A DNA stretch of 64,000 bases from positions 12,152,001 to 12,216,000 of the forward strand of contig AP026540.1 of NCBI GenBank assembly GCA_026075535.2, in the 5' to 3' direction. Numbering within the stretch: position 1 is the stretch's first letter; each line of letters opens with the position of its first letter. Position numbers and translations under genes: made by a program. This DNA comes from Tricholoma matsutake (lineage: Eukaryota; Basidiomycota; Agaricomycetes; Agaricales; Tricholomataceae). Shown here piece after piece: positions 10,546-53,820 of this stretch. Below the pieces are notes generated by a model, which searched no databases, was not told where the DNA came from, and saw only the letters and a program-made list of their open reading frames with translations.

Positions 10546-11050
10546 GCCATACAAGTAGAGCGCAATATGTGCACAGAGCAAGTGAGCCATGTGGCAACAT
10601 ACAAGGGTGGAATGGACTTGGCTTCAGCTACACAAGTGTGGTGAGCTGTGCCTCCCTGCACTTATGTGTGTCCATAACTTCAAGGGTGTTGCGCACAAGA
10701 TGAGCAAGCTAAGAACCAATGCACGGGATTACAAGTTGCAAGTTGGTGTCAATCGAGTGCGATTATCAGACTAAGGTATTACAAACAATACTATAGACTT
10801 AAATATGCAGAAACAGAACATAGGTAGTATGCTAAAGATAGTGCAGAACGGAATAAAGAAGTAGAAGTGGAACAAGATTTCAAGTTGGAAAGAAGTCAGA
10901 ACAGGAAAATGAAGCATAGAATGAAGGCATAATTGCGGTTATAACAGCTATTTACACATTGCCAGGGATGCAAAATTATTGGCACCCTCTGTTGGGAGCC
11001 CAACATACAACCAGGACCTTCCTTCCAATACCATAAGTGCCTGCTGGCTG

Positions 11051-11302
11051 TTAAGACTATAGGTCTTTAACTCAGCCTTGGCTTCATATGTCACAGTTGG
11101 ATGCTTTCCAACTATATCAGTATCGCACTAGGAGGCTTTCCTAGTGTATCGGGCTTCTGGCTTTCACTTGGGTACTTCCTCAAGTCATTGCGGCTATCCA
11201 TACTCAGAGGCTTTCTGAGTAGACCGTTGGTTCGTGTATCACAGTTGGAGGCTTTCCAACTGTCAAGTTCAAGTTATCACAGCTAGGGGCTTCCTAAGCT
11301 GT
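11051..11302 (+). repeat. array of six or seven hairpins with a conserved AGGCTTT loop
   Basis: Successive stem-loops: TTAAGAC/GTCTTTAA (11051-11069); AGTTGG-ATGCTTT-CCAACT (11095-11113); CACTAGG-AGGCTTT-CCTAGTG (11126-11146); ACTTG/CAAGT, imperfect (11166-11185); TACTCAG-AGGCTTT-CTGAGTA (11201-11221); ACAGTTGG-AGGCTTT-CCAACTGT (11241-11263); ACAGCTAGG-GGCTT-CCTAAGCTGT (11279-11302, one bulge). The loop is constant while the stems differ and stay complementary. This indicates selection on structure, or a structure-dependent copying process, rather than simple tandem duplication. Confidence 0.85.
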
Positions 11303-11405
11303 CGAGTGTTCTGGTTGAGTCTAAGACCATTGATTGAATTAGGTCAAGCTGAGGAATACAGGCAGTATTACTACAGCTTATATATGGTTCAAAGATACCT
11401 ATTGT

Positions 11406-11441
11406 CCAATCGGAATGCAGGATCGTTATCAAGTATAAATA
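11406..11441 (+). promoter_or_regulatory. CCAAT box and TATA box of the LTR-like element
   Basis: CCAAT at 11406-11410 and TATAAATA at 11434-11441 lie about 24 bp apart in the right order for a plus-strand core promoter. They are downstream of the hairpin array, so the array would sit upstream of the start site if this promoter is used. Confidence 0.5.
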
Positions 11442-11755
11442 GAAAGAACAATAGAAAAGACAGGCCTCATGCCTAGCATGAGGTGTCCGATGTTATGGAT
11501 CCGACATCAAGGATCTGATGTCAAGGACATGCTGCAGTGCAGCATGTTGATTGTGAGTGTCCGACGTCATGGACCTCATGTCAAAGGGCTGTCATATCAC
11601 AGCATGCATGGGAGTGGGTTTGGGTGCATGGAGTCACCATACGTCAAAGCGTCTCCCGTTGGAAGTGAGTCGAGTTGAATGAGAAAAATTAAAGTACCCG
11701 GTCTTGCCAGCATACATCTGGTCGTCGTGGGTTACGATAACAGAAAATCGTAACA

Positions 11756-12030
11756 CTGGCTGCTGGACAGTTGTGACATGAGTGATAATATGGCTGTATG
11801 AATGGTGCCTGCCTCTCCTCTTGTGTAGATAGTGATTGATGTGAGCAGACTCTTATAAAGGTGTGCATTATTCCCTCCAGTGGAAGGCTCCAAATGTTTT
11901 GAATGAATCCTGTATCATGAGCCTGTGTCAATGGATTGTAGAACTTTATAGCACTGTTTGCTTTATGTGACTTTTCACAACTGAATGTGCACTCATCACA
12001 GTGCACCTGCAAAAGATGCTGGGCTTGCAA
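11756..12030 (-). pseudogene. CACTA (Tnp2-type) transposase C-terminal fragment
   Basis: The minus strand encodes SAIKFYNPLTQAHDTGFIQ then NIWSLPLEGIMHTFIRV and QSLSTQEERQAPFIQPY. This lines up with the C-terminal part of the longer Tnp2 copy at 44400-47137 (HIQFYIPTCGDTIETGYIEE, IWELPLEGLWQTFFFVRQH, PYTVEP). It stops abruptly at the edge of the LTR-like segment. No other part of that transposase is nearby. Confidence 0.65.
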
Positions 12031-51549: not shown

Positions 51550-53820
51550 TTGCAGGTCGCACAAAATTTGAGCATACCCCAACCACTCAAGGCACATACA
51601 GGCACCTCGAGAAATTTACTGTCTCCTACAATACAGGCAGTGAATCTCGAAGCGCATATATCCACTACAAGAGCGATCAATTCCTCTGTGCTCAGACTTC
51701 ACACAGCCTGGGTGACGGTCGAGGATGACAGCAACCTTGACTCAAAGAAATCTAACTTGTCGAAAAGTAGTCGACAAAGCGCCCGGTCAACCCCCAGACC
51801 TAATCCGGGGTTACAAGGACTCTCACCTCTGGATGAACTAACTTCAGAGTCCCTGAATAACTGGGTCACCCCCATTAATTATATCAATCTTCCCCAACAA
51901 TGTCTGGAGTATACTACACCCAGACTATTGTCTGCCCAATGGCCAGAGTTAGCCCCGTCAGTGCTGCCGATGCTGATGGACGAACACGAAAGACTACGTC
52001 GGCATGAAGAGAAGAAACCTCTCAAGAAACCTAGAGAGGATGAGTCGGATGAAGAGTTCGGAGCTTGGCATTTTGCTCAGCTTGCTACCGATATCCTTGG
52101 CTGTGCCAGGGATGCCCAGGACTTCAAACCTGTTAAGTTGGAAACCCAACTTAAAGATCTGGCATTTGCTTATGCCAGACAATGTTCCCGTAGGTCTGTA
52201 TCCAGACCTTCTACTCCTCATACAGCTGAACATGTGGAGCAGCAACTGTCCCCTTCCCAGGAATGTGTTAACCCACGTCCAACCACGCCAGTAACACCAG
52301 TCAAGGTACCTTCCAAAAAGAAGGTACATTACATTGACAACAATAAATTAGTCCTCCAGAGGATACGCGATGGCGATATCTGGGATGGACAACCCACATC
52401 GATTCCTGATCAAGGGATTCGTTTCGACAAGGATGCTAATCCTTGGGATAAGAACAGCAAAAACTCTTGCCATGATAAGCGAGAGAAAGCCCCACCAGGA
52501 GGGTCCAAAAATCCTGCGCAGAGTCATGCAGGCAAGAACAGGCCACCAGATGGCGACAGTTCTGGTGACGATGGAGATGAAAGTAGTACTGACTCGTTGT
52601 ATAGCACCTCGAGTAATGAAAACAGCAAACACTCTTCCCCAAGTGAGGAAGAGATTGCTAATAAGACCTTGTCTCACCACAGACGAGGTAGCTGGGCACA
52701 GCATTCATCTAGTCAATCCTCGTCTAGATATTCTGTATCTTCCCGTCCCGATTCCTATCGAGGAAAAGGTTCCCTTCGACCCTCAAAATACTTGAGGGAC
52801 ATTCATACGAAGATCTACAGACAGATCGACAGCAAAGTCTCTGTCTTGACTGAAGTTTCTACCACTAGTGGTAAGAATGGTCTGCATGTCCCAAATCCGC
52901 CTAAGTATGGTGGATTACCAGACACCAAAGGCTTCGAACGATGGCTGAACGCCCTCCTTTGTTGGCTGAAGGTGAACAAAGTATGTGGTCCAGATCTGGA
53001 CTCAGACCGTATTGAGTATACGGCGATGTTCCTTGAGAACACCGCCTTGACTTGGTTTGAGGACAGTGTTGACAGTGCATACTGTCAACGAGCTGCCTGG
53101 ACTTTCAAGGAGGTCATAACTGGCCTATACGACCGGTTCGTGCATGAGAATGCAACCCATGATGCGACCGACAAATTTTGGCACATCAATTATAACGCCA
53201 AAGAAGGCGTTATGGGTTACTACCACAAACTGGAGTGCTATGCAACCAGAATGATCCAGGCACCAGATCCTTTCACCTTCAAGACCCAGTTGGTGACTGG
53301 GTTGCCCAACAACATCATATCCTTTGTACTGGACAAAGGATGCTCCACTGAGACTAGCTCAGTGGGAGATATTTTGCACTACGCCTGTCAGGCGGAGGAA
53401 ATTGGAAAAATGAGAAAATGCTTCAATGAAAAGAAGCATATCATGGAATCCACAAAGTCAAAGACATCCTCTTTGACTAAAGCTCCCAAAATGGAGGATC
53501 CTTCTCCTGAAAGATCTAATGGATGGTCGCAAGAACATTACATTAAACACGATAAAAATTATCGTGATAACTCTAATCCATCCAGTTCAAAATATCCTGA
53601 CAGAGACCACCGAAGCTACGGCGATCAAGATCGCCATTACAAGGAGCATCGTGATACATGACATCATTCCCCTGGAAGCAAACCTTCCAGTTCTAATGGA
53701 AACAAACCAGACAAGAAGTCTGGTGAAAGCAAGGCCCCACTTGCTACAACTGTGGAGGCCCTCATTACTCCACAGATCCTAAGTGCCCAAAGTATGGGCA
53801 ACAAAGACCAACAGTGAAAA
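51550..53820 (+). pseudogene. large gag of chromovirus 2, nearly intact
   Basis: The frame is open from about 51550 to the TGA at 53659 (703 codons). The first 400 residues are acidic and Ser-rich with no known domain. The capsid-like core spans residues 440-620: PPKYGGLPDTKGFERWLNAL, EYTAMFLENTALTWFEDSV, FKEVITGLYDRFVHENATH, GYYHKLECYATRMIQAPDPF, LVTGLPNNIISFVLDKG. After the TGA (arginine position, HRDT*HHS) and a 1-nt deletion near 53734, the zinc knuckle CYNCGG-PHYSTDPKC follows. The true start could be upstream of 51550, because the region from the LTR to 51550 holds no stop-free alternative that I could favour. Confidence 0.85.

Follow-up and report, generated by a model that had tools for sequence, protein, structure and literature searches.

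A hairpin array with a near-constant AAGCC loop in the predicted self-priming RNA leader of a Tricholoma matsutake LTR retrotransposon

The stretch of Tricholoma matsutake DNA analysed here (64,000 nucleotides, hereafter the window) contains a run of hairpins whose loops are nearly constant whilst their stems differ, raising the questions of which element and strand carry this array, whether its pairing is maintained by selection, and what such a structure might do. A sequence-only reading had placed the array in an LTR-like element and proposed selection for structure. We examined copies of the element throughout the T. matsutake genome (161,040,721 bases, 13 contigs), using their boundaries, coding capacity and patterns of variation to address these questions.

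The host element, its coding strand and its self-primer

The array lies within a TG...CA LTR (Table 1; plus-strand ends TGTTAAGACT...AATCGTAACA) that is flanked by a CTGGC target-site duplication, and the corresponding empty target site, lacking the LTR, is present in L226, another copy of the repeat in which the LTR sits. The proposal of an LTR-like element is thereby borne out; of the limits suggested for it, 10990-11755, the right-hand end stands, but the true start is 11049, 10990-11048 being flank. As the right-hand target duplication directly abuts the LTR, the window copy is a solo LTR. From one outer LTR end to the other, two-LTR copies measure about 7.3 kb, with GAACA duplications flanking the C3 pair and GTTCT the C2 pair, and a purine tract (GAGAGGGTGA) precedes their 3′ LTR in the sense direction; TG...CA LTRs, target duplications and a polypurine tract together identify an LTR retrotransposon. 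A further LTR copy about 124 kb away (L033, C3:12286629-12287470) has a target duplication and flank identical to those in the window, which could reflect duplication of the segment or of a host repeat.

In the two-LTR copies the open reading frames for Gag, protease, RT/RNase H, integrase and chromodomain, which are partly broken and were read as they stand, run opposite to the plus orientation of the window LTR, whose sense strand is therefore minus. The sequence-only reading had put the array upstream of a CCAAT/TATA pair; this location is ruled out by the opposite coding strand, on which the promoter motifs precede the array. Pfam assigned Retrotrans_gag, RVP_2, RVT_1, RT_RNaseH, Integrase_H2C2, Chromo and SH3_Tf2-1 to five ORFs of one two-LTR copy, and the domain order is that of a chromovirus (Ty3/gypsy with chromodomain). 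No zinc-knuckle family was among the Pfam assignments for the gag ORF; a zinc-knuckle-like motif, CFVCHQTGHRVSEH, was recognised by eye in the gag ORF of L049.

On the sense strand the LTR begins TGTTAC and ends AGTCTTAACA, followed in two-LTR copies by the primer-binding site (PBS) AAAGGTCAAGCTGA. A motif within the LTR, TCAGCTTGACCT, is the reverse complement of AGGTCAAGCTGA just past the LTR, and its spacing from the TATA box suggests that the RNA starts at this putative self-primer. A genome-wide count of the LTR-PBS junction pattern gave 373 occurrences, against none for a control. We sampled these elements in two ways, taking 40 of 100 listed junction places by position rather than by LTR similarity (leaving out some places whose element was already sampled), and 20 elements from 116 RT matches. 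The primer motif was present in 38 of the 40 unselected places, the TATA box beginning 32 nt before it in 37 of these 38; primer and TATA were found in 16 of the 20 RT-chosen elements, with identical 32-nt spacing in all 16, the remainder comprising two that have the junction but no primer and two that lack the junction motif searched for. Altogether the primer motif was absent from four of 58 loci having the junction. Contiguous complementarity between primer and PBS in the other 54 leaders extended over 12 nt in 20, 11 nt in 14, 10 nt in 19 and 9 nt in one, and primer pairs with PBS in the predicted fold of every one of the 54.

The U3 part of the window LTR (11464-11600) also contains several diverged GACGTC/GACATC-type motifs and short palindromes, and a repeated stretch occurs in the U3 part of copies L025, L033, L039, L045 and L047; the GACGTC/GACATC-type copies are possible enhancer repeats.

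Table 1. Features of the LTR and hairpin array, in window coordinates
Feature	Position	Strand	Basis or remark
Solo LTR, TG...CA, 707 bp	11049-11755	sense strand minus	genomic copies, ends, coding strand of two-LTR copies
Target-site duplication CTGGC, left copy	11044-11048		right copy 11756-11760
TATA box TATATAAG	11377-11384	-	first base 32 nt before self-primer
Self-primer TCAGCTTGACCT, 12 nt	11341-11352	-	predicted RNA 5′ end; complementary to PBS of two-LTR copies
Long-range stem P1, 5′ arm	11313-11328	-	RNA fold and alignment
Hairpin S1, loop AAGCC, one bulged base	11279-11302	-	DNA fold and copies
Hairpin S2, 9 bp, loop AAGCC	11241-11263	-	DNA fold and copies
Hairpin S3, 8 bp, loop AAGCC	11201-11221	-	DNA fold and copies
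Hairpin S4, bulged A, loop AAGTA	11166-11185	-	DNA fold and copies
Hairpin S5, 8 bp, loop AAGCC	11126-11146	-	DNA fold and copies
Hairpin S6, loop AAGCA in window (AAGCC in 72 of 93 aligned rows)	11093-11115	-	DNA fold and copies
Long-range stem P1, 3′ arm	11062-11077	-	RNA fold and alignment
LTR-end hairpin, loop CTATA (sense strand), unrelated to array loops	11050-11071	-	DNA fold and copies

Structure of the array and conservation of its pairing

Six hairpins, each with a near-constant loop of 5 nt, make up the array, which spans 11093-11302, is enclosed by the 14 pairs of P1 and occupies the predicted RNA leader between self-primer and PBS. Where six or seven AGGCTTT-loop hairpins had been proposed, six hold, the seventh does not, and one of the six loops is clearly different. 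Plus-strand AGGCTTT comprises the loop GGCTT and the A-T pair closing it; S2, S3 and S5 match it exactly, the corresponding letters being GGGCTTC in S1, GTACTTC in S4 and ATGCTTT in S6. Four stems in the 304-nt leader region pair perfectly for 7 bp or more around a 5-nt loop, whereas 4907 of 5000 dinucleotide shuffles of that region contained no such stem and the other 93 contained one. Fold z-scores for 11049-11348 were -4.4 (RNA, plus strand), -4.3 (DNA, plus strand) and -4.8 (RNA, minus strand). Covariance models from Rfam 15 gave no match up to E=1 on either strand of 10900-11900, which rules out a known Rfam family. As P1 and the LTR-end hairpin share bases in the 11050-11077 region they are mutually exclusive, and in the modelled folds this exclusivity may constitute a switch of the leader fold.

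Conservation was assessed in an alignment of 93 distinct leaders, all from the one T. matsutake genome, comprising the window, 39 other LTRs (L009-L047), 15 RT-chosen and 38 unselected leaders; some rows are both LTRs of a single element. One duplicate was dropped from the RT-chosen set beforehand, and two RT-chosen and two unselected loci lacking the primer, together with two RT-chosen loci lacking the junction, lie outside the alignment. The structure tested was the window fold plus S1 pair 98/110, which was taken from bulge-less copies and is missing a letter in 81 of 93 rows. Of 5824 stem cells 97.3% pair, against 27.5-41.6% when partners are slid by one to three columns, although this way of defining the structure favours it over the slid versions; for P1 the paired fraction across the 93 rows is 98.0%. 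Pairing is thus not freely lost among the copies.

Compensatory change was examined in the same alignment. Ten of 65 pairs have changed on both sides (6.7 in shuffles, a value of ten being reached in 9 of 500), and 79 cells have done so (14.8 in shuffles, reached in none of 500), as had been anticipated from the single copy; further pair types, at 35 against 37.1 in shuffles (reached in 476 of 500), were not in excess. Because relatedness among copies inflates such cell counts, we compared shared with singleton variant states. States common to at least three copies keep rather than break pairing in a ratio of 17:5, and singletons in a ratio of 10:26 (Fisher p = 3.6 × 10−4; states in exactly two copies, of which four keep and six break pairing, and slot 4, which is misaligned in one group, were left out), and four of the five shared breaks lie at a stem end or beside the S1 bulge. 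On a tree built from non-stem columns, with slot 4 included and pair-restoring changes (two inherited, four private) excluded, inherited changes keep or break pairs 32:9 and private changes 41:70. Shared variants therefore preserve pairing more often than private ones, which, with the contrast between true and slid partners, upholds the earlier proposal of selection for structure.

We next consider the molecule on which this selection acts. If it is the sense RNA, A.C mismatches should be less well tolerated than G.U pairs. The observed ratios of G.U-keeping to A.C-breaking states, 8:5 for shared and 10:12 for single variants, show no significant difference, and the P1 values on the tree, 15:1 for inherited and 13:17 for private changes, are taken as a hint only because the 15 sit in four pairs and include reversals. 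The tolerated mismatches, having no significant sense-strand bias, would equally suit a DNA-level element, i.e. palindromic sites or cruciforms just inside the transcription unit that are bound by a host or element protein, and the DNA fold yields the identical hairpins. However, a DNA-binding protein would be expected to preserve its half-site sequence rather than pairing, and a local cruciform does not explain the retention of P1, whose arms are some 235 nt apart; the P1 tree counts, within their limits, also point away from DNA, and we consider this explanation improbable. The covariation itself fits RNA or DNA, and it is the position and orientation of the array from which we infer that selection acts on RNA.

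A still less probable alternative, to which we give very little credence, dispenses with selection on pairing: template switching between the arms during reverse transcription would rewrite stems and so keep their arms matched. It would account for a C-G to G-C double change seen in 18 rows at pair 254/271, which by single steps requires an unpaired C-C or G-G; neither is seen there, the only other cells being one U-G and one C-A. The group carrying the double change has, though, diverged across the whole neighbouring segment, which would have allowed time for stepwise change, and rewriting leaves unexplained the conservation of the loops, the long-range P1 stem and the more frequent breakage of pairs by private than by shared changes. 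Neither a DNA cruciform nor a stem-rewriting mechanism is needed.

Loop conservation, modular variation and a possible docking function

The AAGCC loop is present in 86 of the 93 aligned leaders at S1, 91 at S2, 92 at S3, 51 at S5 and 72 at S6; AAGTC occupies S5 in 30 leaders, and S4 has AAGTA in 66 and AAGCA in 27. Stem sequences differ among slots as well as among lineages, S1 for example presenting one loop on ACAACTAAGG/CCTTAGTTGT, ACAACTTAGA/TCTAAGTTGT or ACAACTCAGA/TCTGAGTTGT according to lineage, and the differences from slot to slot rule out tandem duplication with unchanged stems. Non-majority letters make up 4.1% of stems, 3.4% of loops, 4.3% of P1 and 11.8% of spacers, so that variation in stems, loops and P1 is about three times below that of the spacers.

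Leaders range from 233 to 345 nt in length and from about four to seven in hairpin number. S5 and S6 together, or S6 alone, are absent from some, and 11 rows (L051, L058, L059, L060, L065, L086, L088, L089, L100, L109 and L113) contain one extra hairpin unit of about 41 nt. The stem of this unit, slightly altered in L089, equals the S1 stem of another lineage, the L034 group, and from these sequences hairpins seem to be exchanged among lineages as modules. Gain and loss occur mostly as whole units, L102 and L113 being cut within units.

These observations bear on whether the array is a scaffold and nothing more, the hairpins compacting the leader so that primer meets PBS, or impeding ribosome scanning, with the loop serving as a stable pentaloop. 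The predicted folds, which bring primer to PBS in every case, are in keeping with a scaffold, as is the variable hairpin number, which indicates that no exact number is needed. A scaffold would nevertheless have no need of one loop on several different stems, of loops less variable than spacers, or of a slot 4 that retains its own AAGTA/AAGCA version, and we judge it unlikely to be the whole explanation.

That the locus encodes a structured, self-priming leader RNA is very likely. We further favour, with rather less assurance but as the probable reading, an array that forms the structured 5′ RNA leader (R-U5) of a self-priming Ty3/gypsy chromovirus and whose AAGCC loops are docking sites. According to this model the first 12 nt of the RNA would fold back on the PBS some 300 nt downstream, P1 would close beside the primer-PBS duplex, and the AAGCC-loop hairpins would stand out from the enclosed loop as repeated docking sites, most likely for Gag, whose binding would serve genome packaging and dimerisation whilst the leader fold carried the self-primer to the PBS. 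The array would then probably function in multivalent Gag docking for packaging, or as a starting site for reverse transcription, a multivalent site being compatible with differing numbers of hairpins. Gag leads the candidate partners because of the zinc-knuckle-like motif in the gag ORF and because GACG tetraloop hairpins are linked to packaging in alpha- and gammaretroviruses (PMC516450); by this analogy we propose Gag tentatively, RT or a host protein being alternative partners of the loops.

A more specific and more speculative version, which we put forward as a possibility, is a modular same-loop docking platform for Gag or RT between self-primer and PBS, in which each hairpin can be acquired, dropped or swapped as a unit, the stems drifting through matched substitutions, and in which the alternation of LTR-end hairpin and P1 could toggle the RNA between a translated and a priming state. 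If true, the array would amount to a natural experiment on the requirements of a packaging or priming signal. The recognition of their own RNA by Ty3/gypsy and Tf1-type elements is, to our knowledge, poorly understood; this family offers hundreds of natural leader variants and a visible repeated motif from which to define the signal comparatively and test it on short RNAs, and the array suggests how a 300-nt self-priming leader can hold primer and PBS together.

Comparison with known elements and relatives

The closest parallel is the Tf1/sushi group, likewise of chromodomain-bearing Gag-RT-integrase elements, in whose RNA, as far as the excerpted sources describe it, the 5′ end is complementary to the PBS after the LTR (PMC7175516, PMC10085805). 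Tf1-type priming uses the first ~11 nt of the RNA, freed as a primer by RNase H cleavage; here 9-12 contiguous nucleotides at the predicted RNA start match the PBS in 54 of the 58 junction loci. The excerpts place a further stem beside the Tf1 primer-PBS duplex, as P1 is here (PMC10085805), and describe a ‘pretzel’ leader of three duplexes with no mention, in those portions, of a row of constant-loop hairpins (PMC7175516, PMC10085805). Two of the three duplexes have counterparts in our leaders, namely the primer-PBS duplex and P1. For the third, sought between leader nt 13-70 and the 77 nt past the PBS, 18-93 of 100 shuffles were as strong in each of 18 loci, and nine of the 18 best matches fell at one place overlapping an S1 arm; this duplex is accordingly rejected. 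Since it was not found, and since the likeness is one of layout rather than of an RT tree with named members, the element works like Tf1 but is not a proven member of the Tf1/sushi group.

Also resident in T. matsutake is marY1, a gypsy-type LTR element that is 6047 bp long with 426-bp LTRs (PMC10211490), against about 7.3 kb and 707 bp here; identity is rejected on these lengths of element and LTR. Alpha- and gammaretroviruses too possess constant-loop leader hairpins, but their GACG hairpins lie downstream of the PBS, whereas the AAGCC hairpins lie between RNA start and PBS. These GACG tetraloop hairpins are tied to packaging and perhaps dimerisation (PMC516450); the loop differs, and the analogy is one of working, with no relationship claimed. 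Among the matches listed in the open-access literature, none described an LTR leader carrying an array of constant-loop hairpins.

An RT query found no relatives in IMG/VR, and none of 103 stretches matching a two-hairpin pattern there contained, within 80 nt, a pair of AAGCC-loop hairpins with stems of 5 bp or longer. Within the T. matsutake genome, two other RT families were sampled as 12 loci of 4.7 kb that have at their end an RT sharing 46-62% identity with the query. An AAGCC-like loop on a hairpin of at least 7 bp occurred in none of these 12, and the self-priming 9-mer signature was absent from 11, the exception (L082) being chance-like; as the LTRs of these families were not delimited, both comparisons are weak. 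Of 5675 RT homologues, the 120 listed show 56-76% identity, those named being from Moniliophthora, Trametes, Sparassis and Paxillus.

Elsewhere in the window, 53270-53740 contains a second dense run of perfect hairpins, in which stems and loops are all different. Its RNA fold z-score is -7.4, and it adjoins what appears by eye to be a Gag zinc knuckle; this run is perhaps the structured coding RNA of another retroelement.
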